Shown here in pieces: positions 2,845 to 63,833 of a DNA stretch of 64,000 nt; positions within the stretch are counted from its first letter, which is position 1, and each line of letters opens with the position of its first letter. This stretch comes from Heloderma charlesbogerti (taxonomy: Eukaryota; Chordata; Lepidosauria; Squamata; Helodermatidae), in assembly GCA_026122225.1 (NCBI GenBank), contig JANEZZ010001898.1, positions 372,001-436,000 on the forward strand. Reading direction: 5' to 3'. The translations under genes and the position numbers were made by a program. The notes under the pieces are model-generated. The model did not search any database. It was given only the letters and a program-made list of their open reading frames with translations, and was not told where the DNA came from.

Positions 2845-2852
2845 CTCCCACC

Positions 2853-3382
2853 TAGGGGTGTACGAAACCCCGCTTACCTGGCTCCACTGGGTTCCGCAGA
2901 TGGGGGGAGGCAATCTGTTCCTCCCTCTGGAATCCTCGATGGGGGGAGAGGTGATCCGTTCCTCCCCCCCCCCAGAATCCTGCCTGGCCAGCTCGGCTCT
3001 GCGGCCAGGCCGTGGAGCTGCTGGCCAGGCCAACCTGCAGAAGGGCCTCCAGCTGCTGCCAGGCTGGCGCAGACGCAAATGTGTCCCTGCTTTAGCCGTG
3101 ATAGGCTACGTAAATATATATGTAGCCTTATCACGGGGCTGGCATAGGGACGCAAATGGCGGCCACTACGATGGCCGCCATTTGTGGCCGCAGCAGCCCA
3201 GCAGCAGCCGGAGCCACCGCCGCCACCGCCCTTGCCGCAGCTGCAGCCAGGTAGGCTCTGTTTTGCAGGGCTTTCGTGGGGTGGAGAGGCGGGGGGCTCC
3301 ATTCCGCCACGGATTCCGGGCCCCCGAATTCACTGCAATTCAGCCCTCCTGGGATCCGTGGCAGAATTCTCTAACATCCCTA
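2853..3382. mobile_element. Palindrome-core hAT-type non-autonomous element (530 bp)
   Basis: The element begins TAGGGGTGTACG and ends CATCCCTA. It is flanked by the perfect 8-bp duplication CTCCCACC at 2845-2852 and 3383-3390. Eight-base duplications with a TAGGG-type terminus are the mark of the hAT superfamily. Inside are a single TGATAGGCTACGT hairpin (3096-3136) and a palindrome around CAAATGGCGGCC (3153-3184). Near the left end is a donor-like CAG/GTAAGC on the minus strand, pointing out of the element. No transposase frame is present, so it must be mobilised in trans. It is the shortest form of the TGATAGGCTACGT core with both ends intact. Confidence 0.85.
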
Positions 3383-3390
3383 CTCCCACC

Positions 3391-4699
3391 TAGGGATGTA
3401 CGAATCCCTTACCTGGCTCCGCGCAGGGGCATCCGTGGTGGGGGGGAGCACTCCGTCCCTTCCCCCAGAATCCTCAACGGGGGAGGTGCTCTGTCCCTCC
3501 CCTCGGAATCCTGCTCAGCTGGCTCCATTCCGCGGCCAAGCCGCGGAGCCACTGGCCACCTCCGGCTGCCCGCAGGCAGACATCTGGCTGCTGGGCAGCC
3601 CTGCAGGGATGCAAATGGCAGCTGTCGTAGCTGCTGCCATTTGCGTCCCTGTATTGAGCCATGATAGGCTACGTAAATATTTACGTAGCCTATCACGGTA
3701 GGGGGAAAAACCCCAGCTTACGCAAATGGCAGTAGCCGCTGCCATTTGCATACGCTGGGGTTTCTCCCCCCCCTGCCGTGATAGGCTATGTAAATACTTA
3801 TGTAGCCTATCATGGCTACGGATGGACGAAAGTCACTTACCTGGTCCCGCAGCTTGATTCGCAGTGGGGGGGAGGCGCTCCGGTCCTCCCCGCCGAAATT
3901 CTGGCCGGGGGGGAGGCGCCCCGTCCCTCTGGACGAAATTCTGGCCAGGGGGGAGGCACCCCATCCCTCCGGCCGAAATTCTGGTTGGGGGGGAGGCGCC
4001 CTGTCCCTCCGGCCATGAATCCTCCTGGAGTTTGCGTCCCTGCAGTCAGCCGTGATAGGCTACATAAGGATTTACGTAGCCTATCACGGTGTTTTTTGAA
4101 AATCTAGCCATGATAGGCTACGTAAATCTTTACGTAGCCTATCACGTTTGTTGTTGTTGTTTTTGTACTGGGAAATGGCAGCGGCAGCCGGTCTGAAAAC
4201 CGGCCGCCGCCGCTGAACTGCCACTGAGAGCCGCCAGCACCAGGGACATTCGCACAAGGTAAGTCCCATCCCAGGGGTGGCAGGGGGTGGTGATGGACCG
4301 TTTCTCCACCAATTTGGGGGGGCTGAATGCATTGGCATTTGGCCTCCCGGAGATCCGTGGAGAAATTCTCCAACATTCCAGCCTCTGCAGGGATGCAAGT
4401 GGTGCCCCTGCGTTAGCCGTGATAGGCTATTTAAGTATTTACATAGCCTATCACGGCTGAGAAGAGGAGGAAGTGAATGGCGGCTGCAGGATGGCCGCCA
4501 TTCGCAAAGCAGTGTGGATGAGAGCAGGTAAGTGCTCTGTCTTTCGCCTTTCATGGGGTTGGGGCATCGGGGATTTCATCCCGCGTGCCTTTCATGGGTT
4601 GGAGGGGCGGAGGCTTCGTTCTACGTTGGATTTTGGGGGGCCAAATGCACTGGCATTCGGCCTCAGCAAGATCCGTCATGGAATTCTCTGACATCCCTA
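3391..4699. mobile_element. Palindrome-core hAT-type element, expanded composite (1309 bp)
   Basis: It starts TAGGGATGTACG directly at the end of the duplication that closes the previous element, ends CATCCCTA, and is followed by a third copy of CTCCCACC (4700-4707). It holds five TGATAGGCTAC hairpins (3661-3698, 3776-3815, 4051-4089, 4108-4145, 4417-4456) and ATGGC palindromes such as 3721-3752. An internal sequence at 3817 resembles an element start (TACGGATGGACGAAAG), and one near 4372-4378 resembles an end (ACATTCCA). I see no duplication around that inner unit. The copy may therefore be a fusion of two or more elements by recombination. Between 3855 and 4010 a GAAATTCTGG...GGGGGGAGGC block is repeated in tandem about four times. 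Confidence 0.8.
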
Positions 4700-4707
4700 C
4701 TCCCACC

Positions 4708-6719: not shown

Positions 6720-6750
<31 letters not shown>

Positions 6751-6768: not shown

Positions 6769-7866
6769 ATATCCTCCCAGCTTTCCTAACTGCTTCATAG
6801 GCTGCACCCCCATTTCAGCTTGCCCTTTTGGATGGAATTTGGCCCTGAAAGAGACTCAGATTTGATTCTATTGTGTATCTCTTCCAGTATGCCACCTGTA
6901 TTTAACCTCTCATGTGCTTGGCACATGAGGTTAAATATGCAGATCAGAATACAGTCAGAATAAAGTTTTGCACTTTTTTCCCCCCAAAAAACATACCCAA
7001 ATGCTTATAAAATCTGTATTTTAGGGTAACATGAATAAAATGTGTATTTCAAGTTACATGCATGCAAAATTCATATTTTGTAAAATGATACATTCAGATT
7101 CACAAAAATGCACATTTTTGTGTGTTTTAGAAATAGAGTGATCCATCCATCCTATCTACCTATCTATCTATAGTCTTCAAGTTTGGTTTGCACGATGCCA
7201 TCTCTGAGAGAGAACAGTATTATCTTTTTTAGATGGAGAAAAATGAATTAAATCCAATTCAAAAATATATTAAGGCAACTTTCTGAATCTTCTTTAGATA
7301 AAACCATTAAAATATTAATGTAATGCTGTTTTGACTATTTCAAAGTTTGAAACTTATTACTTAACAATAATGCTCAAATGCTTTAATCTGCAGGAACACC
7401 CCCCCCCCCCCTGCCGCTTTGGAAGAAGAATTGGCTTCACATTTTGAGTAAATGATGGTACCCATTTAACCTTAAAAAGAGATTGGAATGCATAATAGGG
7501 AACATTCTTTGAGTACGATGCATCAGACATTTGGCATTTACCATTATTGTTAGCAGGCAATCATTTTAGCAGTAGTAGTATTTCCTTCTGTATCACAATA
7601 CAAAATATATTGCCACAAGTTATATAGAAGACACAGAAACGTGCATGAAGATGATCACACTGAAAATAATGAAATAAGGCAAAATACAGCTGCGCCTACA
7701 AAATCCAGAAAATCTGTTTGCATTTTCTTAAACAGGAAGTTTCTCAGTCTTCATAATTGTGGTGTGTGCGTGCATGTGATGCTGTTGGCCATTTTTTGTT
7801 TTGTTTTCAAATGGCTAAGAAACTAGAAACTAAGAAACTAGTTCCACTTCCAGAACTTGGTGCTGT
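6769..7866. other. Unassigned AT-rich sequence
   Basis: A short dyad lies at 6901-6934 (TTAACCTC...GAGGTTAAA). A run of loosely similar TGTATTT and ATGCATGC phrases at 6960-7130 resembles 57900-58100. A short TATC tract is at 7155-7173 and a C-run at 7397-7411. No genes seen. Confidence 0.45.
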
Positions 7867-8230
7867 TACTCATTTATTTTATTTATTTACAGCATTTGTA
7901 TACTGCTTCATATCTAAAACAGATTCTGGAGTGGTGAACATAAGAACTAAAGAAGTAAAAAGATAAAAAGAATTAAAACACCATTATTAAAATTGTTCTT
8001 TTAAAACCAGAATGCCAATAAAAACCATGGCTGGTTAGTTGAGGCATGCTTCCTGGAAAAGAGCTGTTTTCAGGAGGTGCTGAAAGAAGCACAGGGTTGG
8101 TGCCTGCCTGACCTCCAGGGGCAGCGTGTGTAGGGGCCACCACATTGAAGGCTCTACTCTGGGTGGAATCCAGTCAGGCTATAGGCCCATGTGGAGACAC
8201 CAGGAGCTCATCCTTAGCCTTTATCTACAA
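7867..8230 (-). mobile_element. L2-type LINE 3' remnant
   Basis: The left end has the (TTTA)n plus GCATTTGTATACTGCTTCAT signature of an L2 3' tail in reverse. Beyond it, 8040-8230 contains phrases such as GAAAAGAGCTGTTTTCAGGAGGTGCTGAAAG and CCAGGAGCTCATCC that recur in squamate L2 3' regions. It is heavily diverged and not coding. Confidence 0.5.
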
Positions 8231-8472
8231 ACCTATGGCTCACCAACATTTCTTGCTAAATAACAAAGCAATCCTTTGGAGGTGGGAGGGGGGAACTGTA
8301 GCAGTGACACTTCCTATGTCCTGCCAGCTCAGTGCAGCCAGGGAGAAGTGGGAGGGCAGTTTTCTCTTTTGCCATTCCTGTGTGAAACTGAATAGTTCCC
8401 CCTGCACTCACTGGTACTAATGCATTTGGCACCATTAAAACAAAAAACAAAAACAAACTTTTAAAAACTCCC

Positions 8473-8645
8473 ACCCACTATAGCAGCATCGTGGGCCTCC
8501 TAGCAGAGAGGCTTTTAGCCAGCAATGGTTCCTGAATGCCCAGGAGACTGTGTAATGTCACACAGTCTCCTGAGTATTTAGGAACTGCTGCCCAGCTAAA
8601 AGCATCTAGGCGAAGAACCCTGTGCTGCTATGAGCAACATCAGGG
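8473..8645. repeat. Foldback (long imperfect inverted repeat)
   Basis: The centre is GGAGACTGTG-TAATGT-CACACAGTCTCC at 8551-8576. The arms continue outward with interruptions: CAGCAATGGTTCCT pairs with AGGAACTGCTG, GGCTTTTAGC with GCTAAAAGC, and TATAGCAGCA with TGCTGCTATG. The total span is about 170 bp. It has no recognisable terminal motif or duplication, so class is unknown. Confidence 0.65.
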
Positions 8646-10154
8646 CTTTTAGAGCTTATGGGGAATCTCCAAAATCCCCATTCCTGCCACCTCCTACAGT
8701 TAAAAGATAACTGGAACGTCTCCCCATTCCCCTGAAGGAAAATTCTTCAAAATTCTCCACCTCCCTGTGAAAGAAGATGAAAAAACGATGCCTCTTTTGC
8801 AGGAAGAGAAGAATTTTGCAAAAGTAGGGGACAAGATTCAACACAACATTATTTATTTCCCATTGCTTTCCATTTCAGTGCACAAAACTACTTTGAGTTA
8901 CGGTGCTTAAAAACGTGCACCTCCATTTCTAAAACCCTTTATCATGAAATTGATGCTTTGACTATACCTTTCAGGAGATACAAGAGGGAATCCCTACATG
9001 GTCAGGGGAAACTAGATGGTTACCTTCCTGAGATAATGCTTGTCCCCACAGGAAGAGTTGTCATTCTCACTTTGCAGAGATAATTTTTTAAAAAAAAAAT
9101 CCATCAAGAGGTCATACTCATGGAAAATTAAGTATACAATGCAATTGATAACTGAATGCAAAGGTAGTTTTATTACAGGAAATTATATCTGGAAACCTGA
9201 AGTGTTCAAGTCACGTATATAAAGTCTAGGGAAAAGGTCATCTCCACACTTGATGGTCGTTATAATATATTACTGCTATATAGCAATCCTACCTCTTTGG
9301 TGTTGTCAGGTGGGGGAAGATATCCCCATGCAATCAATGGCTGTGCCATATAATGAATGAAACTATGGCACATATTTGACAGCTTCACTTGTTCTCTACC
9401 CACTAATCTAGCTCTCCAAAGAATTAATATAATGTTCTAAGCCACTGAGCAGCTTCATAAAATTGCCTTTAAAAATACATTTGTCAGAAAAAAATTTCTT
9501 CCCTTATCTCTCTAAGGGTATATTCTTATGACACTAGAGCAGATGGTAACAGTTGCCCCTGCTTCCTTAGCTGTCGATATTTTGCTTCCTGCTGCTGCTG
9601 GCCAATTAAACTGCTAGAGTTCCTGCTGACTTGAGTGGCAGTTAGAAAATGATGTGGATGGTTCAAAGGCGTGGAACACTGGAAATATGGTGAAGCCCTG
9701 AAAATTTACCAGCAACAATGAATAGGAAAGGGAGGAATTAAGGACTAGGATCCTACATTTTCTGGTGAGTACAGGAATGATGCTGAAAATTATCTCTCTG
9801 TGGTGAGTAATCCCAACAGGGCTCATAACATTATAAGGGCTCATTGTGTGACTTACCTGTTTCCATATCACCTCCACTTGACCTGACACCTCCATCTTGC
9901 CTATCTATACTAGCCAACCTGCTGGCCAAGGCTCACAGCTTAAGTCAATAGTGCTTGGTGGTCAGGACCAGCATCTACTCTAAAGATTCCTCTGTTGGAA
10001 TGGAGAGGAGACTGCCCTCATATCTGAATGCTCCCAAGCAATGGAACTCCCAGACCTGTTAAGCCAATATCCCCCACCCACCCCCATAATCAGACTAACA
10101 CTTGCCACTCATCAATTGACAATAACAAAAGCCCTGCCCATCTTTGTGACTATC
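8646..10154. other. Unassigned intergenic sequence
   Basis: No genes, terminal repeats or known repeat signatures recognised; short A and T runs only. Confidence 0.45.
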
Positions 10155-12092: not shown

Positions 12093-12610
12093 TAGGGATG
12101 TACGGACTGTGTAAAATCTAGTCTGTCTGTGTTTCGTAGATTGTCAGGTGCTCCATTGTCCGCCCACAGATGGAGGCGAATTTTTCTTTTGCCATGCTGA
12201 AAAATATGCAAATAATTATGTAAGCACTTATGTAAGCATTTACACAAGTATTTACATAATCATAGAATAGTCATAGAATAGTAGGGTTGGAAAGGGCCTA
12301 CAAGGCCATTGAGTCCAACCCCCTGCTCAATGCAAGAATCCAAGTCAGAGCATCCAAGTCAGATCATCATTTACCTTAGTATGTAACATTTAGTGTATTG
12401 TCCCCCATTCCATTCAACGTTTCCTCAGCAGAAACTTACATATTTTCCTACGAATTTATATGCGTAAATTTTGGGAAAGTGAAAAAATCATCCAGAAGTC
12501 CACAGACTCCACATGGCCTGAGGGAGTGGCTCTGCAGTGGATTCCGCAGGTCGGATTCTTAGAACTCTGAGCTCATTTTTAGTCCGTCTTGAATTTCTCC
12601 AGCATCTCTA
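12093..12610. mobile_element. hAT-type non-autonomous element with nested CR1 fragment (518 bp)
   Basis: It starts TAGGGATGTACGGA, ends CATCTCTA, and has a perfect 8-bp duplication GGTTTCAG at 12085-12092 and 12611-12618. It shares its left part (TAGGGATGTAYGGA, then TTGTCAGGTGCT) and right end (TTTCTCCARCATC) with the element at 51929-52358, so the two form one family. A CR1 3' fragment at about 12257-12370 sits inside and accounts for the extra length. Confidence 0.85.
12257..12370 (-). mobile_element. CR1 LINE 3' end fragment
   Basis: In reverse complement this reads through the CR1 tail: a TGCATTGAGCAGGGGGTTGGACTC-like segment, GGCCTTGTAGGCCC, CCAACCCTACTATTCTATGA and a short ATTCTATG repeat. 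It matches the 3' end of the CR1 at 38556-41742. It is strongly 5'-truncated, as is normal for CR1. Confidence 0.85.
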
Positions 12611-12991: not shown

Positions 12992-13569
12992 TAGGAATGT
13001 ACGAAAGGGACTTACCTTGTCCCGCAGCTTTTTTCGCAGTGGGGGGAGGTGCTTCACTTCTCCCCCCGAAGTTCATGCGAGGGGGGGGAGGCTTCGCGCC
13101 TCGCCCAGCCGAAATTCAGGCCGGGTGGGAGGCGCCCCATCCCTCGCCGGCGAAAGTCAGGCGGGGTAGAAGCGCCCCGTCTACCCGGCCGTGAAAAAAA
13201 GAAAAAAAACACCCCCGTGATAGGCTACGTAACGATTAACGTAGCCTATCATGGCTGACTTTGCAAATCTAGCCGTGATAGGCTACGTTAATCGTTACGT
13301 AGCCTATCACGGGGGTGTTGTGTTTTTTTTAACTTTCCTTGTAATGGCGGTGGTGGCAGCCGGTCAAAAGACCGGCTGCCGCCCCCGCCCCTGACGAAGA
13401 CCTGATGAACCGCCACCAGGACCCGCCGCTCGGAGGGACATTCATGAAAGGTAAGTGAAAGGGGGGGTGGCGGGGGGGTGGCGGAGAATTTCACCACCGA
13501 TTTCGTGGGGCCAAATGCGTTGGCGCTCGGCCCCCCGAAGTTTCGGGGAGAAATTCTCCCCCATCCCTA
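12992..13569. mobile_element. Palindrome-core hAT-type element (578 bp)
   Basis: Termini are TAGGAATGTACGAAAG...CATCCCTA with the perfect duplication ACACAAAC at 12984-12991 and 13570-13577. Two TGATAGGCTACGT hairpins (13215-13254 and 13273-13312) are arranged as mirror images, so together with the flanking AACACCCCCG and CGGGGGTGTT they make one dyad at about 13208-13319. The centres of both hairpins differ from the other copies (AACGATTAACGT and its complement) but are still palindromic. Outward-facing donors lie at both ends: CAAG/GTAAGTCC on the minus strand near 13010, and AAAG/GTAAGTGA on the plus strand at about 13448. A subterminal dyad of CCCCGAA and TTCGGGG lies near the right end. 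Confidence 0.88.
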
Positions 13570-19591: not shown

Positions 19592-20281
19592 TAGAGGTGT
19601 ACAAAACCTACTTACCCATCCACTGAAGGGGTCCGTGGGGGGAAGGAGGCGATCCATCCCTCCCCCCAGAATCCTCCCCAGCTGGCTCCGCTCCACGGCA
19701 TGTCCACGGAGCTGCCAGCCGGGCCCAGCCGCAGCCAGATGTCCGGCCGCTGCCACGCAAATGGCATCCAGTGTAGCGAACGCCATTTGCATTCCTGCTC
19801 TTTGTTGTGGTAGGCCACGTAAATATTTATGTAGCCTATCACAGCCAAGGGCAGGGACACAAATTGTGTAGCAGATGCCATTTGCGTCCCTGCTCTTTGC
19901 CGTGATAGGCTACGTTAATATTTATGTAGCCTATCACGGCCAAGGGCAGGGACGCAAATGGTGTAGCAGATGCCATTTGCGTCCCTGCTCTTTGCCGTGA
20001 TAGGCTATGTAAATATTTACGTAGCCTATCACGGCCAAGGGCAGGGACTCAAATGGTGTCTGCTACACCGGACACCATTTGTGTCCACAGCCCAGCAGCA
20101 GATGGCTGTGGACCGAAGACGACGGACCTGCACTGGCTGCCGCCAGGAAGGGTCCGTCCCGACTAGCCTTTGCGGGGTGGCGGGGGGGGGGAGCAGTCCG
20201 TTCTGCCGTGGACTCCAGGGGGCTGGATTCTAAAGAATCCGGCCTCACTGGAGTCTGTGGCATATTTCTCCACCATCCCTA
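19592..20281. mobile_element. Palindrome-core hAT-type element with triplicated hairpin module (690 bp)
   Basis: Termini TAGAGGTGTAC...CATCCCTA, duplications CTCACACC (19584-19591) and CTCACACT (20282-20289), 7 of 8 alike. Three TAGGCTACGTAAATATTTACGTAGCC-type hairpins follow one another at about 19805-19844, 19896-19939 and 19995-20035. Each is separated by the same linker (CCAAGGGCAGGGACGCAAATGG...CCATTTGCGTCCCTGCTCTTTG), which is itself a dyad. The period is about 95 bp. A donor-like GTAAGT lies on the minus strand at the left end; the right-end counterpart is missing. Confidence 0.87.
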
Positions 20282-22187: not shown

Positions 22188-22443
22188 TAGGAGTGCACGA
22201 AAGCCACATACCTGGTCTCGCAGCTTTTTGCGGTGGGGGGGAGGCGCTTCGCTGCTCTCCCTGCGAAGTTCAGGCCGGGGGGGAGGCTTCCCGCCTCGCC
22301 CGGCCGAAATTCAGGCTGGCAGGGAGGCTTCCCGCCTCGCCCGGCCGAAATTCAGGCCGGGGAGGAGGCGCCTCGCCTCGCCCAGCCGCAAAATAAAAAG
22401 TTTTTTTAAAAAAAAAAAACGCCCCCGTGATAGGCTACGTGAC
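22188..22443. mobile_element. Palindrome-core hAT-type element, right-truncated
   Basis: The left end TAGGAGTGCACGAAAG and the GGCCGAAATTCAGGC...GGGGAGGCTTCCCGCCTCG blocks match 47446 onward. It stops in the first hairpin arm (TGATAGGCTACGTGAC at about 22428-22443) and passes into unrelated sequence. It has no right end and no second duplication. Confidence 0.8.
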
Positions 22444-24966: not shown

Positions 24967-25691
24967 TAGGGATGGCCGTGAATTTCTCCACGAATCTCGG
25001 GGAGGCCGAATGCCAACGCATTTGGCCCCCCGAAATTGTTGGTGAAATTTTCCGTCCCCCCCCCCGGATACGTCTACGCTATTTGCGTTCCCCTTATTTT
25101 TGCCGTCTTAGTCTACATAAATGTTTACGTAGACTAAGACGTGCCAAAATAAGGAAAGCAAATGGCAGTGCCCATGGGCACCACCATTTGTGTATGCACT
25201 TTTTTTTTCTCTTTTAAATCGCTATTTGCGTTGCCCTTATTTTCGCTGTAGTCTACGTAAACATTTACGTAGACTACAGCGACTAAATAAGGAACGCGAA
25301 TGGCGGCTCCCTATGGGGGCCGCCATTCACGTACGCACATTTTTTTTTTTTTAAGTCACCCGTGATAGGCTACGTGACGATTCACGTAGCCTATCATGGC
25401 TGACTTTGCAGATCTAGCCATGATAGGCTACGTGAATCGTCACGTAGCCTATCAGGGGGCGTTTTTTGTTTTGTTTTTTACTTTAGCGTTCACGGCCGGG
25501 CAAGGCGAGGTGCCTCCTCCCCGGCCTGAATTTCGGCCGGGCGAGGCGGGAAGCCTCCCCCCGGCCTGAATTTCGGGCGGGCGAGGCGGGAAGCCTCCCC
25601 CCCGGCCTGAACTTCGCGGGGGGACCAGCGAAGCGCCCCCCCCACCGCGAACGGCTTTCGACAACAGGTAAGTGACTTTCGTCCACCCCTA
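24967..25691. mobile_element. Palindrome-core hAT-type element without duplication (725 bp)
   Basis: Starts TAGGGATGGCC and ends CACCCCTA, the two end types of the family. Hairpins lie at 25105-25143 and 25247-25283 (TAGTCTACGTAAA type) and 25361-25398 and 25417-25454 (TAGGCTACGTGA type, mirror pair). The left part of the core present in complete copies is missing. Flanks TTCAAATG and CATATTGA do not match, so either an end was swapped by recombination or a deletion removed one duplication. The outward donor CAG/GTAAGTGA is near 25670. Confidence 0.82.
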
Positions 25692-25737: not shown

Positions 25738-26290
25738 TAGGGATGGCAGAGAATTCCACCACGGATCTCGGGGAGGCCGAATGCCAGTGCATTTGGCCCC
25801 CCAAAATCTGTGGCGGAACGGCCTGCCCCCCCGCCCCCCCCGCAGATCCCCCTGGGACGAGACTTACCTGGGGCAGATCTTGCGGGCTGCGGCGGTGGCT
25901 GGTCTTCAGACCGGCTGCTGCGGCCACCATTTACAGGTTTGTTTGTTTTTTACACCGACATGATAGGCTACGTATGTTTTTATGTAGCCTAAAATGTCTG
26001 GGTAAAAAAAAAAGGCATACGCAAATGGCAGTGGCTACGGCCGCCGCCGTTTGCATTCCTTAGTTTGGGCCGTCTTAGTCTTCGTAAATAATTACGTAGA
26101 CTAAGACGGCAAATATAAGGGAAATGCAAATAGCGTCCACTACACTATTTGCGTTCCCCTTATTTTTGCCGTCTTAGTCTACGTAAATATTTCCGTTGAT
26201 TAAGACATCAAAAATAAGGAACGCAAATGGCGGCGGCCGTAGCCGCCGCCATTTGCGTACGCGGTTTATTTTTTGTTTTTTTCCCAGAGC
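25738..26290. mobile_element. Palindrome-core hAT-type element, right-truncated
   Basis: It starts TAGGGATGGCAGAGAATTCC. It contains hairpins at 25958-25999 (TAGGCTACGTATGTTTTTATGTAGCCTA-like), 26069-26109 and 26167-26206 (TAGTCTACGTAAATATTT type), and CGCAAATGGCGGCGGCC palindromes. The order matches 31898-32841 up to CCCAGAGCCCT, where it breaks into unrelated sequence at about 26290; the remaining 250 bp and right terminus are missing. A donor-like CAG/GTAAGTC faces outward near 25865. Confidence 0.8.
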
Positions 26291-26419
26291 CCTAATAACT
26301 GTAGTGCCACACCCCACCCTACTACTCTTTTCTATGTGTTTCATTTCCCTTCTCCCATGTGTCATGCCTTTTCTTCTCTCCCTGGTCTTCCTCCCATTCC
26401 ATGTATAATCTAATCTAAA

Positions 26420-26729: not shown

Positions 26730-27197
26730 TAGGGATGTACGGATTTCCCCCGTCCATTTGGGGCGGGGAGGTGATCTGTTCCACCCCCCTGGAATCCTTG
26801 CGGAGTGGCTCCACTCCACAGGGATTCCACAGAGCCGAGGGCTGCCACTTACCTGAATTGCCTCCGTGCCGATCGCCACTGAAAAAAACAAGGCGATCGG
26901 CAGGATGTCCCTATAGACGTATAGGCAAAACAGAGCTGTGAATCATGCATATACGCAAGATTCACAGCTCTATTTTGCTTATATGTCTATGGGGACATCC
27001 TGCTGACAGCCATTTTTTTTTCAGTGGCGATCGGTGCAGAGGCAAATGGCTCCCAGTGCAACAAGCAGCTGTGCCATCCTGCATGGAATCCTCCAGGAGA
27101 GGAGGTAAGTGGGGCCGATCCACTGCAGATTCCTTAGGCCAGATTCCAAAGAATCCAGCCTCATTTGAATTCATGGCGGATTTCTCTAACATCCCTA
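26730..27197. mobile_element. hAT-type element with alternative palindrome core (468 bp)
   Basis: Termini TAGGGATGTACGG...CATCCCTA, duplications TCTTCAGC (26722-26729) and TCTGCAGC (27198-27205), 7 of 8 alike. The ends resemble the TGATAGGCTAC family, including the GGGATTCC blocks and outward donors CAG/GTAAGTGG (minus, near 26848) and GAG/GTAAGTGG (plus, near 27104). The core is a different dyad at 26860-27045 with arms of about 80 bp (GCCGATCGCCACTG...CAGTGGCGATCGG outermost; GAGCTGTGAATC and GATTCACAGCTC innermost). It splits an L2. Confidence 0.85.
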
Positions 27198-27973: not shown

Positions 27974-28854
27974 TAAGGATGGCGGAGAATTTCTCCCCGA
28001 AACTTCGGGGGGCCGAGCGCCAATGTGTTCGGCCCCCCGAACAAGTTTCGGGGAGAAATCCTCCACCCCCTGCCCCCCGCACCCCCCCGGGACAGGACGT
28101 ACCTTCACCAAATGTCCCTCCTGGTGGCTGGTCCGGCCGGCGGTTCGGCGGGTGTTCGAGCAAGGCGGGAGCAGCAGCCGGTCTTTCGATCGGCTGCCAC
28201 CACCGCCATTACAATGAAAGAAAGAAAAAAAACGCCCCCTGATAGGCTACGTGACGATTCACGTAGCCTATCACAGCTAGATTTGCAAAGTCAGCCGTGA
28301 TAGGCTACATCAATTGTGACGTAGCCTATCACGGGTGACTTTGAAAAAAAAAAAAAAAGAGTGTACGGATAATGGCGGCCCCCATAGGGAGCCGCCATTC
28401 CCGTTCCTTATTTGGTCGCTGTAGTCTACGTAAATGTTTACGTAGACTACGCCGAAAATAAGGGCAACGCTATTTGCGTTGCCCTTATTTTCGCCATAGT
28501 CTATGTAAAGATTTACGTAGACTACAGCAACTAAATAAGGAACGCGAATGGCGGCTCCCTATGGGGGCCGCCATTCGCGTACGCGCTTTTTTTTTTTAAA
28601 GTCCCCCGTGATAGGCTACGTGACGATTCACGTAGCCTATCATGGCTGACTTTGCAGATCTAGCCATGATAGGCTACGTGAATCGTCATGTAGCCTATCA
28701 GGGGGCGTTTTTTTTTTTTTTTACTTTCGCGTTCGCGGCCGGGCGAGGCGGCAAGCCTCCTCCCCGGCCTGAACTGCGCGGGGGGAGCAGCGAAGCGCTC
28801 CCCCCCACCGTGAACAAGCTGCGAGAAAAGGTAAGTGACTTTCGTCCACCCCTA
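27974..28854. mobile_element. Palindrome-core hAT-type element, near full core, no duplication (881 bp)
   Basis: Starts TAAGGATGGCGGAG and ends CACCCCTA. The subterminal dyad is at about 27982-28062. The core 28231-28708 is one long dyad centred near 28466, built of TAGGCTACGTGA hairpins (28237-28276, 28295-28334, 28605-28642, 28660-28700), TAGTCTACGTAAA hairpins (about 28417-28451, 28492-28528) and ATGGCGGC palindromes. Flanking octamers TGTCATCA and CTTTCTCC are unrelated, unlike most copies. Right-end donor AAAG/GTAAGTGA at about 28829; left-end counterpart is GTACGTC. Confidence 0.85.
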
Positions 28855-30511: not shown

Positions 30512-31062
30512 TAGGGATGGCGGAGAATTTCTCCCTGAATCTTCGGGGGGCTGAACGCCAATGCATTCGGCCCCCCGAAATCGGCGGTGAAATTCTCCGC
30601 CACCCCCTTGCCCCCCCCCCGGGATGGGACTTACCTTTGGAGAATGTCCCTCCCGGCGTCGGGTCCCAGCGGCGGTTCGTCGGCCTTTCGCCGGGGGCGG
30701 GGGCGGCAGCCGGTCTTCCGACTGGCTGCCGCTGCCGCCATTACAAAGTGTAAAGAAAAACAACAACCCCGTGATAGGCTACGTAACGATTTACGTAGCC
30801 TATCACAGCTGACTTTGGAAATCTAGCCATGATAGGCTATGTTAATCGTTACGTAGCCTATCACGGGGGGGGGGGGTTGTTTTTTTTTTAGACTTTGTTT
30901 CACGGCCGGGGAGACGAGGCGCTTCTCCCCGGCCTGAATTTCGGCCGGGCGAGGCGGGACAGCTCCCCCCCCCTCTCCTGAACTTCGGGGGGGAAAGCGA
31001 AGCGCCTCCCCCCCACCACAAAGCACCCCTGCGAAAAGGTAAGTGACTTTCGTACATCCCTA
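30512..31062. mobile_element. Palindrome-core hAT-type element inside BovB (551 bp)
   Basis: Termini TAGGGATGGCGG...CATCCCTA, duplications CTGAGAAC (30504-30511) and CCGAGAAC (31063-31070), 7 of 8 alike. Two mirror-image hairpins at 30769-30808 and 30827-30865 share the core design of 12992-13569. Outward donors at both ends: AAAG/GTAAGTCC (minus, near 30630) and AAAG/GTAAGTGA (plus, near 31038). BovB sequence is continuous across the insertion when one duplication is removed, which fixes the element's borders independently. Confidence 0.92.
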
Positions 31063-31897: not shown

Positions 31898-32841
31898 TAG
31901 GGATGTCAGAGAATTCCGCCACGGATCTCGGCGAGGCCGAATTCCAGTGCATTCAGCCCCTGAACTCCGTGGCGGAATCGCCGTCCACCCCCCTGCCCCC
32001 TCGCGGATCCCCCCCCGGGACGAGACTCACCTGGGGCGGGTCTTCCGACTGGCCACCGCCGCCATTTCCAAACTTGTGTAAAAAAAATAAAAAAAGTCGG
32101 CATAGGCTATGTAAAGATTTACGTAGCCTATCATGGCAAGGTTTAAAAAAAAAGAAAAAAAAAGACGTGATAGGCTACGTAAGTCTTTACATAGCCTATC
32201 ATGGTTGTGTGGGTTTAAACAAACAAACAAACCGCATATGCAAATGGTGGCGGCTATGGCCACCGCCATTTGCGTTCCTTCTTTTTACCGTCTTAATCTA
32301 CGTAAATCTTTACGTAGACTATGACAGCAAAAATAAAGGGGAACACAAATAGCATAGCGGGCGCTATTTGCGTCCCCTTTTGATTCGCCATTTTAGCCTA
32401 TGTAAAGATTTATGTAGGCTAAAATGGTGAATGAAAAAGGGATGCAAATAGCGCCCGCTACGCTATTTGCGTTCCCCTTTATTTTCGCCGTCATAGTCTA
32501 CGTAAATATTTACGTAGATTAAGATGGCCAAAAAGAAGGAATGCAAATGGCGGCGGCCGTAGCCGCCGCCATTTGCGTACGCGGTTGTTGTTGTTGTTTT
32601 TACCCAGGGCCCTCCGCGGCCAGAAATCCAGCTGCGGACGGCTCTGGCCTGGCTGGGCCGGGCCGGGCCTGGCCGGCTGCTCCTCAGAGCTGCTGCGGAG
32701 CACAGCCGGCCGTTCGATGATTCCAAGGGAAGGAACGGAGCGCCTCCCCCCCGGCCCAGATTCCGGGGGGAGGGACGGAATGCCTCACCCCCACACCATC
32801 AACATAATCCGCGAAAGGTAAGTCACTTTCATACATCCCTA
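31898..32841. mobile_element. Palindrome-core hAT-type element inside BovB, five-hairpin form (944 bp)
   Basis: Termini TAGGGATGTCAG...CATCCCTA with the perfect duplication CGAAGAAT at 31890-31897 and 32842-32849. Hairpins at about 32097-32136, 32165-32203 (TAGGCTA type), 32286-32328 (TAATCTACGTAAATC), 32387-32430 (TTTAGCCTATGTAAAG, a hybrid word) and 32487-32527 (TAGTCTACGTAAATATT). ATGGCGGCGG palindromes lie between them. Left donor CCAG/GTGAGTC (minus, near 32027), right donor AAAG/GTAAGTCA (plus, near 32817). BovB coding resumes at once after the second duplication. Confidence 0.93.
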
Positions 32842-44819: not shown

Positions 44820-46300
44820 TATTTATTTCATGTTTTATACGGCCCCAAACCTGAAGCTCTCTGGGCAGTTCACAAAATTAAAACCACAGAAATGCAATAG
44901 AAAATACAATATAACATATAAAAACTACATAATAAAAATACAACCAGAGTAAAAGCTGCAGTGCAGATATTTAAAATGCAACAGCAGATTTAAAACTGGA
45001 ATGCTAAAACGCCTGGGAAAATAAAAAGGTCTTCACCTGGTTCCGGAAAGAGTACAATATAGGTGCCAGGTGAACTTCTCTAGGGAGTGTTCCACAACCG
45101 GGGTGCCACAGCAAAAAAGGCCCTCTTCCTGGTAGCCACCTGCCTTACATCTTTTGGCAGGGGCTACTAGAGAAGGACCCTTGAAGATAATCTTAGGGTC
45201 AGGGCAGGTACATATTGGAGGACATGATCCTTCAGATAACCTGACCCTAAGCTGTTTAGAGCTTTGAATGTTGATACCAGCACTTTGATCGGGCCCGGAA
45301 AGGGACTGGCAGCCAGTGCAGCTGGAAAAGCACTGGCATGATATGATCACTTTGGCCAGTCCTCATTAACAATCTTGGTGCCCTGTTTTGGACCAGCTGA
45401 AGTTTCCAGACCATTTTCAAAGCCAGCCCCATATATAACACATTACAGTAATCCAGACGAGAAGTTGTCAGAGCATGGATAACTGTAGCTAGGCTATCTC
45501 TGTCCAGATAAGGGCATAGCTGGTATATTGGCCTAAGCTGATAAAAAGTGCTCCGTGCCACTGAGTTCACCTGTGCCTCAAGTGACAGTTCTGGGTCCAA
45601 GAGCACCCCCAAACTACTAACCTGGTTGTTTAGGGGGAGTGCAGCCCCCTCCAGAACAGGTTGAACATCACCTAGCCAGGCAGACAAACCACCTACTAAC
45701 AGTACCTTCGTCTTGTCTGGATTAAGTCTCAGTTTACTAGCCCTTATCCAGTCCATTACCGTGCCCAGGCACTGATTCAGAACAGCCACTGACTCACCTG
45801 GATTTGATGAGAAAGAGAGGTAGAGCTGGGTGTCATCCGCATATTGATGGCACCTCAGCCTACACCTCTGGATAACATCCCCCAGCAGTTTCATGTAGAT
45901 GTTAAACAGTATGGGGGATAAAATAGAGCCCTGTGGAACCCTATGGCATAATTGTCATGGTGCAGAGCAATAATCCCCCAGCACCACCTTCTGGAGTCGG
46001 CCATCCAAGTAGGAGTAGAACCAGTGCAGTGCAGTGCCTCCAACTCCCAACCCAGACAACCTATCCAGAAGGATACCGTGGTCGATGGTATCAAAAGCCA
46101 CTGTGAAGTCCAAGAACATCAACAGGGTTGCAGTCCCCCTGTCGCTCTCCTGGCAAACGTCATCCCACAGTGTGACCAAGGCAGTTTCCATTCCAAAACC
46201 AGGCCTGAAGCCCAACTGAAATGGATCTAGAGTAACTGCTCTGGGCACCACCACAAAATGGCTCCCATGGAGGATGTGGCTAGTCACATAATGGCCGCTG
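44820..46300 (-). mobile_element. L2-type LINE, reverse-transcriptase half with intact YADD box
   Basis: The 3' end at 44820 has ATTTATTTCATGTTTTATAC...CTGGGCAGTTCACAA in reverse, an L2 tail. Reading the minus strand from 46287: DPFQLGFRPGFGMETALV, LMFLDFTVAFDTIDHGILLDR, LGVGGTALHWFYSYLDGR, GDYCSAP, then after a stop VPQGSILSPILFNIYMKLLGD and the open frame 45894-45256 with CHQYADDTQLYLSFSSNPGE (YADD at residues 18-21), SKLRLNPDKTKVLLVGG, LGVLLDPELSLEAQV, QLRPIYQLCPYLDRD, TSRLDYCNVLYMGLALK, HWLPVPFRARSK. This is the best-preserved L2 here. The 5' truncation is near 46300. Stops make it inactive. Confidence 0.9.
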
Positions 46301-47437
46301 TGGCAGGCTGGCAGGTCAAAAGTTATCTAAAGAGGTTGGGGATGAGAAAGAACAAAGCAGAGGCTAGGAGCTGGAGAAACAGTGAACTAAAGAGGTGGGG
46401 GAATAGCAAGGCAAAGGGGTAGAGGGGAGAAAAGAGCAAGGCTAGATGCTAGAAAGGGAGAGAAAGAAGACTATCCTAACATTTTCCAAGGACTGTATTT
46501 AAAAAAAATCTTTTTGGAGTAGGCAGGGAGTAGAAAGCTCTATAGATACCACAGGTGGGGGCCCTGCATTGAGGACCCCATCTCACTTTACATCTAGCCT
46601 GCCTTGCTTCCCCCACCCCCACCTCCCACTTGACTGGAATTGGGTTTAGCAGTTTAGGATTAGAGTGAAAGTTTTCTTCATGAGAAAGAAGAGACTTTAA
46701 GAAGTCTTGGAAAGAGTTCTCTTCTTAGAAGAGACATAGCTCCTCTCTTTAAAAGAAAAGAATGAGTTTTAAGTTTGATAATAAGTAAAGGCTGATTGCG
46801 TGTTTAAACAGAAAAATCACGGCTGAAATTTCTGAAGGTGGGGAAGGATTTCCCCTGTTTTATATGGTAGGAATTCTGTCATCACATATTCAAATATCAC
46901 TCATGTAAACCACTTATGTGAGTTGTTAAATATGCAAATAAAAAGAAGTAGAAGAAGAAGAAACTGAATACAACGAACTAATTGATCCTTCAAAGTATAC
47001 AACTAGAGAAGGAATAATTTTAAGCTATGAACCTTGTCCCATTGATTGCTGCGGATGGTGTTCAGGGAATGCAAGTTCTTAGTTGAGGCACTACATGTAA
47101 ATCCATTTCTTTTCCCTGACTTAGTAGCTGCAAAAGGAATCCACTATTTTAAGATCAAAAACAACTGTTTATTAGGCATCTTAGAGGTATCTGAGCAAAC
47201 CTCCCAGTTCAATTGCTAAACTGGCTGTTATGTCTTTCTGACTTCTGCTAAGGAGAAATCATAAAGACCTGAGACAAGCATGAGTTGAGGCTGTGTTTAC
47301 AAATTAGACCATCTTAGTTTTGTTTGATATCTTCAAATTAAAAGGAAAGAAAGAATTGTTGCATAATGAACAAGCAAGAGGCTTTGGTTTACAAGTGGTA
47401 TAAATAAATGAAATGCATTCAAGCAATCAGCATACAT
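46301..47437. other. Unassigned intergenic sequence
   Basis: The first 30 bases may belong to a repeat with CACAAAATGGCTCCC (also near 61250). The rest is purine-rich and unassigned. Confidence 0.4.
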
Positions 47438-47445: not shown

Positions 47446-48416
47446 TAGGGGTGCACGAAAGTCACTTACCTGGTCTCGCAGCTTGCTTTGCGGTGGGGGG
47501 GAGGCGCTTCGCTGCTCCCCCCGAAGTTCAGGCCGGGGGGGAGGCTTCCCTCCTCGCCCAGCCGAAATTCAGGCCGGGCGGGAGGCTTCCCGCCTCGCCC
47601 GGCCAAAATTCAGGCCGGGGAGGAGGCGCCTCGCCTCGCCCGGCCGCGAAATAAAAAGTAAACAAAAAACAAAAAACCGCCCCCGTGATAGGCTACGTGA
47701 CGATTCACATAGCCTATCATGGCTAGATCTGCAAAGTCAGCCGTCATAGGCTACGTCAATCATCACGTAGCCTATCACGGGTGACTTTAAAAAAAAAAAA
47801 AAGCGCGTATGCTAATGGCGGCCCCCATAGGGAGCCGCCATTCACGTTCCTTATTTAGTCGCTGTAGTCTACGTAAATGTTTACGTACACTACGGCGAAA
47901 ATAAGGGCAACGCAAATAGCGTTGCCCTTATTTTCGGCGTAGTCTACGTAAACATTTATGTAGACTACAGCGACCAAATAAGGAACGGGAATGGCGGCTC
48001 CCTATGGGGGCCGCCATTATCCGTACACATTTTTTTTTTTTTAAAGTCACCCGTGATAGGCTACGTGACGATTGACGTAGCCTATCACGGCTGACTTTGC
48101 AAATCTAGCCGTGATAGGCTACGTTAATCATCACGTAGCCTATCAGGGGGCGTTTTTTTTTCTTTCATTGCAATGGCGGCGGCGGCAGCCAGTCAAAAGA
48201 CCGGCTGCCTCCTCTGCCCCTGTTGAAGACCTGACGAACCGCCGCCGGGACCCGCCACTGGGAAGGACATTCGGGAAAGGTAAGTCCCATCCCGGGGGGG
48301 GGGGGTGCAGGGGGCGGGGGGGTGCGGAGAATTTCTCCCTGAAACTACTTCAGGGGGCCAAATACGTTGGCACTCGGCCCCCCGAAGTTTCGGGGAGAAA
48401 TTCTCCCCAATCCCTA
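47446..48416. mobile_element. Palindrome-core hAT-type element, complete (971 bp)
   Basis: Termini TAGGGGTGCACGAAAG...AATCCCTA with the perfect duplication CTAAAACT at 47438-47445 and 48417-48424. The core 47684-48152 is one dyad centred near 47918, with arms of about 230 bp. From outside in, each arm has two TGATAGGCTACGT hairpins in mirror arrangement, an A-run, an ATGGCGGC palindrome, and a TAGTCTACGTAAATGTTTACGTA hairpin. The very centre is GGGCAACGC-AAATA-GCGTTGCCC. Outward donors at both ends: CCAG/GTAAGTGA (minus, near 47468) and AAAG/GTAAGTCC (plus, near 48280). A subterminal CCCCGAA...TTCGGGG dyad lies at the right. No coding capacity. Confidence 0.92.
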
Positions 48417-55075: not shown

Positions 55076-55994
55076 CAAGGGAAGGAGGGACTGCTGGCCC
55101 TCCAGATGTTATTGGACTCTGACTCCCAGCCAGCATAGTCAATGGTCAAAGATTATGGAAGTTGTAGTTAGGGATGTCTGAGAATTTCACCATGAATCTC
55201 AGGGAGGCCAAATGCCAGCGCATTCGGGCCCCCGAAATTGGTGGCGAAACGGTCTGCCCCCCCCCCGGGATGGGACTTACCCTGGGCGAATCCTCCTGGC
55301 GGCGGCAGCTGCAGCGGCCGGTCTTCCAACTGGCTGCCGCCGCCACCATTTCCAGTAAAACAAACAAACAAACAAACAAACAAAGTGATAGGCTATGTAA
55401 AGATTTATGTAGCCTATCATGGCTAGATTTTTAAAAAATACTGTGATAGGCTACGTAAATGTTTACGTAGCCTATCACAGCTGAGTAAAAAAAACACAAA
55501 AAACCACACGTACGCAAATGGTGGCGCCCATGGGCGCCGCCATTTGCGTTCCTTATTTTAGCATGTCTAGTCTACGTAAACATTTACGTAGACTACAGCG
55601 AAAATAAGGGGAACGCAAATAGCGTAGACATAGCGTAGACGTGCCAAAATAAGGAATGCAAATGGCAGCGCCCATGGGCGCCGCCATTTGCGTACGTGCT
55701 GTTGTTGTTGTTTTTTACTCAGCCGTGATAGGCTACGTAAACATTTATGTAGCCTATCACAGCTGACTGCAGGGACACAAACGGCGGCGGCTACGGCCGC
55801 CACCATTTGCGGCCCAGCTGGCCAGGATTCAGGGGTGGAGGGACGGAGCGCCTCCCCACCCGGCCAGAATTTCGGGGGGAGGTACGAAGCACCTCCCCCC
55901 CACCGCGAATCAAATTTGTTAAAGGTAAGTGACTTTCATACATCCCTAGTTGTAGTTCAGCAACATCTGTAGGGTGAAGGATGTCCCACCCCTA
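55076..55994. mobile_element. Small hAT MITE split by a palindrome element (131 bp when joined)
   Basis: Left piece 55076-55168 (CAAGGGAAGG...CTGGCCCTCCAGATGTT...CCAGCCAGCATAGTCAATGG) and right piece 55957-55994 (CAGCAACATCTGTAGGGTG...CCCACCCCTA). The flanking octamers are GCATAACC (55068-55075) and GCATAAGC (55995-56002), 7 of 8 alike. Without the insertion the MITE is 131 bp, close to the 137 bp of 59871-60007. Confidence 0.82.
55169..55948. mobile_element. Palindrome-core hAT-type element inside the MITE (780 bp)
   Basis: Termini TAGGGATGTCTGAG...CATCCCTA with the perfect duplication GTTGTAGT at 55161-55168 and 55949-55956. Hairpins at about 55385-55420, 55441-55479 and 55724-55761 (TAGGCTA type) and 55563-55600 (TAGTCTA type). 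Palindromes GGCGCCCATGGGCGCC occur twice (about 55523 and 55668). An (AAAC)n tract is at 55357-55384. Donors: CAGG/GTAAGTCC (minus, near 55277) and AAAG/GTAAGTGA (plus, near 55925). Confidence 0.93.
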
Positions 55995-59845: not shown

Positions 59846-59870
59846 ATGTGTCTACACTGTTCCTTTAAAG

Positions 59871-60799: not shown

Positions 60800-62889
60800 G
60801 TTTAGTATGATGCGCATGAACAGGAAGGAACCACCATGAAAGTGGCTCACATGCTTCCCCTCCTCTCTCCTCCTTCTGAGAGGTGGGGAAGAGGAGTTCA
60901 GCAAGTCCCCCCCACTCACATTTCTCTACATTTCAGTTTGTTGTCTCATCCACAGCAGGGACTGTGGTTTAGCACAAACTCTGGTCAGTTTCAAAACTGT
61001 CAACTTCAAACATGAGTTATGAAGTGGTCCTCCTTAACTAACCAGAGTGTGTGAAACACTATGATACAAAAGCTAAGAGCAGGCAAAGTGAAAGTAAGAG
61101 CTGACAAAATTCTCCTCCACACTGACTGCACAGGAGAAGGAAAGGGGAGGAGAAGCTTGCAGCAGCTTCTTCATCCTCACACACATCTCACTGACCTTTG
61201 TGGTCAGTGTGGTCACATTTGGAATTTTGAGAGGGTGTTGTGGATGCTCTCACAAAATGGCTACCATGGAAGGGGCACTTATTGATAAAATGGCTGCCAT
61301 ACTGGGCATGAAGAGTCACAAGAGGTGGGGTCTGAGATACAACACCACTGTTTTGAAACACAATAAAGATGGTGCTGGAGGGCAGCCCTTCACTTTGCAG
61401 CATGCCAGCCTCCCCATTTTTTTCCAATAATTAAAAAACCACCTTAAATACAATAAAAATCAAGAGGGGCTGAGAACCTGGCAGGCACCAAAAGAGGAAT
61501 CAGTGGGCCAAGAGGGGTGTCTCCAGGCACATTGGTGGCTACAGGCACCATGATGGAAACCCCGACATGAAATCATTGTGTAGCATGATGTGTGAATGAA
61601 CATGGCCATTGTGTATGAACACTAATGTATGAACACCCCCACTGCTGACTAACTGGGTGTTGTTGTTTTTTATCTGCAGAAAATCAGTGTATTCACCAAC
61701 AAGGCTGATGAAGGTGGTTAGTTGTATAAAATATGATTTGTTTCTTCTTGAATTCATGTTTCTCAAGATAGCAGTGATGTCAGCTGTCTTCTGGAAAGAA
61801 AAAAAGGACAATACTACACAGGTTACTTTGACTCCAGGAGATTGATTTCTGAGCCCTGTGCTTTGTGTTAAATCATTTTTATGAACAAGGAGGCAAAAAG
61901 CTGCTAGTCATTTAGATTAAATCAGATGATTGAAGGCCTTTGGACTTTAAAACTGGTTGTGAAATATGTGAATGTCTGTGCTCGATTTGATGAGGCTGTG
62001 CTCACTGTGTTCAGAGAGGTGTTTCACTTTTATACTTCCATCCTAAAATGACTATGTAGACAGGCACCCCAAAATTGAGTTTTTTCTCTGTGCCAGTGGC
62101 AGTGCCATTGTGAATATGCCATTGTAAATCATTCCAGTATTTTGCTGGGTAAAATCACTGTGGCTTGGAACTAGTGCTGTCACTGTACCAAAAATTTATC
62201 CCACTTTTTTTCTTTCTTTTCTTTTTTTACTATTCTCATTCCGTTGAATAGAAAATAAATTGCTTTCAAAGAGTAATTCAAAGGAGAAGAAAATTTCAGA
62301 GAAATCCTCATGGGTTGGTTTCAGGGTCCTTGTGCTTACCTTACTTATGAGATGGGTGAGTTTGTGTGAGTGTCCTGTCTTTCATTATACAATCATCTCC
62401 CTGGTAGCCTAGCATCCTTGACTTCCTACATTTCAATTAATGCCTAGGGGAAGGCATCATGTCTTTTTCAGATCAGGAAGTGCAGGCAGAATGGGAGGCT
62501 GCAGAAATATTGAGATATGTGTAATAGAAAGAAAACACACACACATGGCACCTCTGGCCACCTTGCTGTGATTAGGTAAGCTCAAAAATACCACCAAAAT
62601 AAATTCAAAATAAATGACAAAATGCCAGGAGAATGAGGTAAAAAAAAACAAAAACATAAACACCTCTTTCATGGGGGAAGAACACTGTCATGAAATTGGG
62701 GGACAGATTTTGGCACAGCACTACCTCCACCTCTTCCCTGGAGGTAGACACAACACTGCTCCAGTCACCTGCTACAGGGCTTTCAGGGAAGCAGCAATAT
62801 TATAAGTGTCTGCATTAGGGGCAAAATGTATTCACAATCACCCCTCAGCAACATAATGTTTGTAGAATCTGGGGAAGGTGCTGAACCTG
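60800..62889. other. Unassigned intergenic sequence
   Basis: About 2 kb with no gene recognised. 61240-61300 has CACAAAATGGCTACC and AAAATGGCTGCC phrases, also seen near 46255, suggesting a dispersed repeat. Confidence 0.4.
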
Positions 62890-62897
62890 GAAGAATG

Positions 62898-63825
62898 TAA
62901 GGATGGCGGAGAATTTCTCCCCGAAAATTCGGGGGGCCGAGCGCCAACGCGTTCGGCCCCCCGAACAAGTTTCGGTGAGAAATCCTCTGCACGCCCCCCG
63001 CACCCCCCCCGGGACGGGACTTACCTTCCCTGAATGTCCCTCCCGGCGGCGGGTCCGGCTGGCGGTTCGTCCGGTGTTCGAGCGGGGCAGAAGCAGCAGC
63101 CGGTCTTTCGACCGGCTGCCGCCCCCGCCATTGCAATCAAAGAAAAAAAAAATACGTCCCCTGATAGGCTACGTGACGATTCATGTAGCCTATCACGGCT
63201 AGATTTGCCAAGTCAGCTGTGATAGGCTACGTGAATCATCACGTAGCCTATCCCGGGTGACTTAAAAAAAAAAAAAAAAAGTGTGTACGGATAATGGCGG
63301 CCCCCATAGGGAGCCGCCATTCCCGTTCCTTATTTGGTGGCTGTAGTCTACGTAAATGTTTACGTAGACTACGGCGAAAATAAGGGCAACGCAAATAGCG
63401 TTGCCCTTATTTTCGCCGTAGTCTACGTAAACATTTACGTAGACGACAGCCACTAAATAAGGAACGCGAATGGCGGCTCCCTATGGGGGCCGCCATTCGC
63501 GTACGCGCTTTTTTTTTTTTTTAAGTCACCCGGGATAGGCTACGTGACGATTCACGTAGCCTATCACGGCTGACTTTGCAGATCTAGCCGTGATAGGCTA
63601 CGTGAATCGTCACGTAGCCTATCAGGGGGCGTGTTTTTTGTTTTTTGTTTACTTTCGCGTTCGAGGCCGGGCGAGGCGACGTGCCTCCTCCCCGGCCTGA
63701 ATTTCGGCCGGGCGAGGCGGGAAGCCTCCTCCCCCCGGCCTGAACTTCACGGGGGGAGCAGCGAAGCGCTCCCCCCCACCGCGAACGGCCTTTGACGACA
63801 GGTAAGCGACTTTCGTCCACCCCTA
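62898..63825. mobile_element. Palindrome-core hAT-type element, best-preserved copy (928 bp)
   Basis: Termini TAAGGATGGCGG...CACCCCTA with the perfect duplication GAAGAATG at 62890-62897 and 63826-63833. The left end has a subterminal dyad at about 62906-62987 (GAGAATTTCTCCCCGAA...TTCGG-GAGAAATCCTC around GGGGGGCCGA and TCGGCCCCCC). The core 63154-63632 is one dyad centred near 63395 with arms of about 235 bp. Each arm contains two TGATAGGCTACGTGA hairpins, an A or T run, an ATGGCGGCCCCCATAGGG palindrome and a TAGTCTACGTAAATG hairpin. Outward donors: GAAG/GTAAGTCC (minus, near 63023) and ACAG/GTAAGCGA (plus, near 63801). The sequence is CpG-rich, unlike its surroundings. Confidence 0.93.
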
Positions 63826-63833
63826 GAAGAATG

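Follow-up and report, generated by a model that had tools for sequence, protein, structure and literature searches.

What are the chains of palindromes that recur across a 64,000-nucleotide stretch of the Heloderma charlesbogerti genome (contig JANEZZ010001898.1, positions 372,001 to 436,000 of the forward strand; hereafter the window), and where did they come from? They lie in short repeated elements and are composed of modules with the core TAGKCTACGTNA-N4-TNACGTAGMCTA. These elements are probably (at roughly 0.8) non-autonomous hAT transposons, which inserted with 8-bp target-site duplications (TSDs), have a right end that matches the one of a 9.4-kb hAT element with two predicted genes, and were likely moved by the transposase of the lineage of that element. 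The odd repeat architecture would then be traced to its source, the palindromes being a duplicated cis-acting end.

Pairs of TAGGGATG-like and CATCCCTA-like tips with at most one mismatch and lying 80-3000 bp apart were collected from the window (n = 102). The flanking octamers agree at 7-8 of 8 positions in 14 of these pairs in exact register and in none at 12 other registers, with a mean of 1.4 and a maximum of 5 such pairs when the flanks are shuffled; one of the 14 pairs merely spans copies a and b. Flanks are perfectly identical over 8 bp in ten pairs, and over 3-7 or 9-12 bp in none. Thus, the hAT-type termini of a multi-copy family, claimed in an initial annotation of this DNA, are real, and the five perfect octamers that it named are recovered (copies d, j, k, l and m). 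Relaxing the tips to two mismatches (3732 pairs) adds copy c; another row at this setting, 3145-4274, was discarded as a likely chance match inside copies a and b. With the a + b span omitted and copy c included, 14 elements of the window are flanked by TSDs: a, b, c, d, i, j, k, l and m, which carry modules, and n, o, p, q and r, which do not. Module sequence is borne by 13 window loci, the remaining four (e, f, g and h) being without TSD; of these, only e and g are truncated. The copies referred to below are as follows.

2853..3382, minus strand: copy a, C-type, 530 bp, TSD CTCCCACC, one T1-type palindrome
3391..4699, minus strand: copy b, 1309 bp, TSD CTCCCACC in common with its tandem neighbor a
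12093..12610, minus strand: copy o (wider family), TSD GGTTTCAG, 107-111 bp match to the interior of two parent-type elements
12992..13569, minus strand: copy d, A-type, 578 bp, TSD ACACAAAC, one T1 doublet
19592..20281, minus strand: copy c, C-type, 690 bp, TSD CTCACACC/CTCACACT, three 95-bp tandem palindrome units
22188..22443, minus strand: copy e, A-type, truncated within the center of a T1 palindrome, half a module remaining
24967..25691, plus strand: copy f, 725 bp, no TSD, mosaic of a B-type left and an A-type right part
25738..26294, plus strand: copy g, B-type, without right end
26730..27197, minus strand: copy n (wider family), similar tips, a different palindrome, no modules, TSD TCTTCAGC/TCTGCAGC
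27974..28854, plus strand: copy h, A-type, 881 bp, no TSD, interior palindrome at 28218-28727
30512..31062, plus strand: copy i, A-type, 551 bp, TSD CTGAGAAC/CCGAGAAC, within a BovB-like LINE
31898..32841, plus strand: copy j, B-type, 944 bp, TSD CGAAGAAT, within the same LINE as copy i
47446..48416, minus strand: copy k, A-type, 971 bp, TSD CTAAAACT
55169..55948, plus strand: copy l, B-type, 780 bp, TSD GTTGTAGT
62898..63825, plus strand: copy m, A-type, 928 bp, TSD GAAGAATG

The initial annotation counted fourteen copies of a single palindrome family, ranging from 468 to 1309 bp. Thirteen loci do carry modules and both extreme copies exist, but the 468-bp copy (n) is free of modules and the 1309-bp copy (b) looks composite, with an inner A-like element without recognizable TSD inside an outer C-like element. 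Copies a and b form a tandem with three copies of CTCCCACC (2845-4707), which could be a double insertion at one site or a recombination product. The break of copy e, at 22430-22443, coincides with the center of the T1 palindrome, like a cut hairpin tip. Further TSD-flanked elements with the common tips and no modules start at 11111, 12093, 15782 and 51132; the second of these, copy o, is probably an older internal-deletion derivative, as it matches the inside of two parent-type elements.

The ends and duplications have the character of hAT elements. Terminal inverted repeats are short, consisting of TAGGGATG and a few imperfect bases, and the tip TAGGGATG agrees with the Ac-type tip at 8 of 8 positions. 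The duplication consensus of the Ac group is nTnnnnAn, as against nnnTAnnn; among 39 duplications, 27 have T at position 2 or A at position 7, and three have a central TA. The presence of 8-bp duplications in copies elsewhere, on which the initial annotation had made the hAT assignment depend, was examined in 20 further stretches of 10 kb from one contig (C1) of the same genome, selected for holding the module word. TSDs flank 26 of 184 tip pairs there, against 0-1 at other registers; two of these 26 elements are nested inside others, and 22 contain module half-sites. Insertion is also recorded by the long interspersed nuclear element (LINE) at 29000-33230, which we take to be BovB-like. Its reverse transcriptase is recognized by Pfam (E 6.7e-25), and it is interrupted by copies i and j; excision of the element with one octamer restores a continuous LINE frame, open at j and with two old stops at i.

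No transposase frame was seen among the 10 of 37 window frames of at least 120 codons that were scanned with Pfam, only reverse transcriptases scoring above cut-off. Such frames were found elsewhere in the genome. A search with profile PF05699 gave 871 candidates, the best 150 of which were scored, and at least 17 open frames of 870-908 codons were counted by eye among the hAT matches listed. Six loci were read, plus both ends of a seventh. The C235 element is 9,387 bp long, has TSD CACAACAC on both sides, and ends in the left tip TAGGGATGTCAGAGAAATTC and the right end AAAGGTAAGTGACTTTCATCCACCCCAA. Its transposase frame of 879 codons matches Dimer_Tnp_hAT (1.3e-16) and zf-BED (6.8e-5), with Hermes as its relative among solved structures (3.6e-15). 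On the opposite strand, a frame starting MAAPVRGRRWDHEETKALL matches Myb_DNA-bind_4 (5.4e-9) and extends to a GGTAAGT. A diverged element, C356 (10,377 bp, TSD AGTAGGGC on both sides), carries relatives of both frames. The two Myb-like frames, which score 5.4e-9 and 3.5e-11 with the Myb profile, are 61% identical with a ratio of nonsynonymous to synonymous substitution (dN/dS) of 0.30, and dN/dS of the transposase is 0.51; between C235 and its close relative C1725 the latter ratio is 0.81, from few changes. Thus, the genome that holds the window also holds an element with a BED finger, a hAT dimerization domain, an 8-bp TSD and matching ends, which is the kind of partner that the initial annotation proposed to look for, and the hAT assignment is upheld by it.

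The Myb profile search of the genome gave 837 candidates. Four of the best 150, which were scored, lie 2.4-3.5 kb from one of the best 150 of 871 hAT matches, all in convergent orientation as judged by eye; the loci with a Myb match near a listed hAT match are C2217, C2251, C696 and C1893. Among the best 7,990 protein candidates by common words, the closest to the transposase are squamate BED/hAT proteins of lizard and gecko, such as Sceloporus LOC121921799 (36-42% identity, the loci being compared as proteins only), followed by frog. Several annotated squamate proteins differ from the parent-type element in joining SCAN, KRAB or RING to hAT transposase domains (P0002-P0005). For the Myb-like frame, searched with a query that included ~35 residues before the ATG, none of 55 protein candidates reached E 0.001. 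An A-type element was also seen within a transposase locus (L032:4269-5200, duplication GTCTCAGC). The C356 element has overlapping open frames of 640-759 codons at 7267-9704 (L033/L041), beside its Myb-like frame; the region is GC-rich, and the frames likely reflect composition, not coding. ACAGCGTACATCCCTA was considered as an end of the transposase element and dropped because homology continues beyond it.

The link between short and long elements lies in the right end. In the C235 element, the terminal 390 bp on the right begin with a T2 palindrome and a hairpin of ATGGCGGC type; two T1 palindromes and GC-rich repeats follow, and AGGTAAGT and the tip come last. The right half of copy h is a direct match to this stretch (89.3% over 384 bp), and those of copies m (81.5% over 433 bp) and k (88.1% over 312 bp and 89.0% over 118 bp) are direct matches to the C235 end, while the left interiors of h, k and m match the same end in inverted orientation (85.9-87.3% over 249-257 bp). 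The parent end is thus present twice in these copies, directly in the right interior and inverted in the left, and the ~510-bp palindrome is a duplicated subterminal region. Its position in copy m is as follows.

63140..63646, no strand: nested palindrome of copy m, made up of the right subterminal region of the parent-type element in inverted and then direct orientation
63800..63825, plus strand: right terminal block of copy m, donor-like AGGTAAGC plus tip
63019..63026, minus strand: left-hand AGGTAAGT of copy m, pointing outward

When the arms of copies h, k and m are compared, 6 sites are the same in all three left arms and different from these in the right arms, and 2 sites are common only to both arms of one copy. 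The arms are thus orthologous between copies, and the simplest origin of the large palindrome is a single event in which the right subterminal region was duplicated in inverted orientation; homogenization of arms by gene conversion is unsupported by these counts. T2-type units, counted by eye and by repeat spacing, number one in C235, three in C1725 and at least four in C2251, and C1725 and C2251 have one T1 palindrome each. Module number therefore varies in parent-type elements too, as the differing T2 counts indicate. The lineage of palindrome chains gaining and losing modules, as initially described, is right in outline, with the amendment that the modules are part of the parent-type right subterminal region and that the largest palindromes are an inverted duplication of it.

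The small vocabulary of palindrome words described earlier is confirmed on both strands of the window: TGATAGGCTACGT occurs 23 times and its complement 20 times, TAGTCTACGT 9 and 8 times, and ATGGCGGC 13 and 15 times. That the interiors consist almost entirely of palindromes is, however, overstated, since coverage by the criteria applied is only 0-51% across the 13 module-bearing loci, compared with at most 0.4% in shuffled sequence and 1.3% outside elements. Copies d and i retain a single T1 doublet. In total, 47 modules that share the core with few departures were found in the window, and 46 of them were aligned. An example is given here.

25358..25401, no strand: T1 module, core TAGKCTACGTNA-N4-TNACGTAGMCTA

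The pentamer CGTAA, which lies inside the module core, is found 35 times in 3,600 end bases and 4 times in 25,423 middle bases of three pooled parent-type elements, and ranks first for end enrichment among 122 CG pentamers (p 1.7e-17). In C356 alone it is found 15 times in the ends and not in the middle (p 3.8e-12). Such enrichment is as expected of transposase-binding repeats, and we infer that the modules are arrays of binding sites for the transposase or the Myb-like protein. The short elements, inserted with 8-bp duplications, likely moved by borrowing the transposase of the parent lineage, and their palindromic modules would be paired inverted sites, with core CGTAA, for the BED finger or its Myb-like partner. 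Extra copies of the site may make the short elements good substrates, and slippage between repeated palindromes may alter module number. With less certainty, the palindromic region might double as the promoter of the Myb gene, and the outward AGGTAAGT motifs might be splice donors of divergent first exons.

Several observations do not fit this derivation easily. Right ends match the parent in h, k and m, but the only long match at a left end is that of copy j, whose first 23 bp are identical to C356. The A-type left end (~235-250 bp, with an exon-like stretch and donor of its own) is unmatched in the three parent-type elements compared, so none of them can be taken as the direct parent of the A-type subfamily. 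The left tip is missing from C1725, C2251 has no TSD, and C356 has neither the donor motif AGGTAAGT nor exact modules. No hAT match among the best 150 of 871 lies near 146 of the best 150 of 837 Myb matches. In C235 alone, CGTAA is found 6 times in the ends and 2 times in the middle and is outside the top end-enriched pentamers, and C235 and C1725, both in the pooled count, are ~97% alike and hence not independent. Finally, the support from core conservation, the core differing between copies by 5-12% and non-core by 17-44% at non-CpG sites, comes from a comparison that is biased because the modules were chosen by similarity.

The outward AGGTAAGT motifs bear on two further accounts of the palindromic region. 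The 14 window elements contain the motif 17 times, the 26 further elements 28 times (at least once in 18 of the 22 with half-sites), and all 45 occurrences point to the nearer end; outside elements it is found 3 times in 52 kb of the window and 19 times in 178 kb of the further stretches. The base 5' of it is A in 25, C in 16, G in 4 and T in none, and the splice-donor consensus favors such preceding bases. The CpG observed/expected ratio reaches 0.92-1.23 in copies of types A and B and 0.57-0.65 in those of type C, against 0.15 outside, and is 1.20 in the last 0.4 kb of the C235 element compared with 0.23-0.60 in its other bins; the Myb-like frame begins just inside this palindromic right end and reads away from it. 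These features make a bidirectional promoter at the right end plausible. That the region is primarily a CpG-rich bidirectional promoter whose outward first exons finish at strong splice donors close to either tip, with the family scattering promoter/first-exon cassettes and transposase binding secondary or absent, can be entertained only tentatively. CpG sites in modules change several-fold faster than their neighbors (in four A-type copies, transitions reach 3.7% at CpG and 1.1% at other C/G sites), so that module CpGs decay like methylated sites and a protected CpG island is unsupported. The left exon-like stretch, from ATGGCGG onward, is without codon constraint, with 12, 15 and 12 variable columns by codon position and stops in three of five copies, and a coding reading of it was rejected. 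The right AGGTAAGT also lies inside the terminal block, and in the excerpted account of Hermes the AAGT sites bound by the BED finger apparently point outward too (PMC10368747). The same account describes these sites as oppositely oriented at the two ends, with one quasi-palindromic pair 11-27 bp from the left tip. A comparably tentative alternative is that the transposase binds the outward AGGTAAGT motifs as subterminal repeats and that their resemblance to splice donors is superficial; AAGTGACTT, which several copies have at 14-22 bp from their right tip, is in keeping with it. However, there is mostly a single motif per end and no series, A or C precedes AG in 41 of 45, and the distance to the end is 26-27 bp at the right tip and mostly ~70-180 bp at the left; in the further set it is 26-27 bp in 12 of 28 and 71-393 bp in 16 of 28.

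Two other explanations take the palindromes themselves as the starting point. Copy m folds into a single ~510-bp hairpin (z -46 as DNA, -67 as RNA), as would be expected if the palindromes were kept as RNA hairpins, sources of small RNA, rather than for DNA binding. Paired changes in modules amount to 64 cells compared with 20.7 when shuffled, but the pairs having such changes number 9 compared with 8.5. Departures at core CpGs (17 C-to-T, 6 G-to-A) track the strand of the window and not the orientation of the element, and an RNA-strand asymmetry was dropped for this reason; the CGTAA repeats of C356 lie in a region without exact modules, and Rfam at gathering scores gave no match. A role as RNA hairpins is thus very unlikely. 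Ordinary fold-back elements, in which a chance inverted duplication left palindromes without function, are improbable, if less so. The arms of h, k and m, orthologous across copies and unhomogenized within them, are what one old inverted duplication would leave. However, the small palindromes pre-exist in the parent-type end, the core is conserved and CGTAA is enriched at the ends. Nor do the inverted repeats reach the tips as in fold-backs, the arms of copy m ending ~240 and ~180 bp short of them.

The family is large in the 2.30-Gb assembly that holds the window. The exact word TGATAGGCTACGT is found 249,665 + 249,777 = 499,442 times (reversed control 20 and 31), and the exact right-end 25-mer GGTAAGTGACTTTCRTNCAYCCCTA 41,646 times (control 0). 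The 13 module-bearing loci contain 43 exact words, or ~3.3 each, and 5 of these loci, as counted by eye, have the exact right end; scaling by these values gives rough estimates of ~150,000 and ~110,000 copies, respectively. The exact module pattern had no match outside this genome in sets of viral and genome contigs, and the exact right-end pattern had none in the viral contig set.

Among known systems, Galileo, a fold-back of the P superfamily, resembles the window family in its large inverted repeats, length variation and chimeric copies, as do other fold-backs; unlike in Galileo, the big palindrome is internal here and the terminal inverted repeats are ~8-10 bp. PIF/Harbinger elements have two genes, encoding a transposase and a Myb-like protein, as the parent-type element does; the latter differs in its hAT-type transposase and its 8-bp duplication. 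Among ten papers matched for hAT elements with a Myb/SANT second gene, the one on Myb-bearing transposons, judged by titles and abstract openings, concerns Harbinger, and five tip and module strings had no occurrence in the literature searched. According to an excerpted account, Ac of maize has multiple subterminal hexamers, AAACGG, bound by transposase, and makes a single transcript (PMC3260210). Ac/Ds share with the window family a tip, C/TAGGGATGAAA, that includes TAGGGATG, as well as 8-bp duplications, short heterogeneous non-autonomous derivatives and multiple subterminal repeats (PMC3260210). In contrast to those of Ac/Ds, the repeats of the window family form palindromic pairs with CGTAA as their core and have been duplicated to give a nested palindrome; a Myb/SANT-like second frame further sets the parent-type element apart from Ac. 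Hermes, with BED-bound AAGT subterminal repeats of which one pair is quasi-palindromic, resembles the parent-type element in its BED finger and hAT dimerization domain; its repeat sequence differs, and a nested palindrome this large is absent from the excerpted description (PMC10368747). The window family is probably a variant of Ac-like hAT elements, possibly one already catalogued in Dfam or Repbase.

A bolder synthesis is doubtful. It would have a squamate hAT work as a two-protein system, in which a CpG-rich palindromic operator at one end of the element drives a BED transposase and its Myb/SANT-like partner; some 100,000 parasites would be built on this operator, many on its fold-back duplication, filling the genome with bidirectional promoter cassettes of outward first exons, splice donors and arrays of sites bound by the proteins of the element itself. 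Regardless of this, many open transposase frames, a second frame for a DNA-binding protein and around 100,000 derivatives make this vertebrate hAT lineage suited to asking what makes non-autonomous elements succeed and whether promoters or splice donors are spread by them, for which a short DNA and two proteins suffice.

Scans for tRNA genes gave no match. Apart from these elements, the window contains the reverse transcriptase frames of two further LINEs (40371-41679 and 45256-46326) and a tandem array at 34594-34985, with 2.4 copies of a 165-bp unit.

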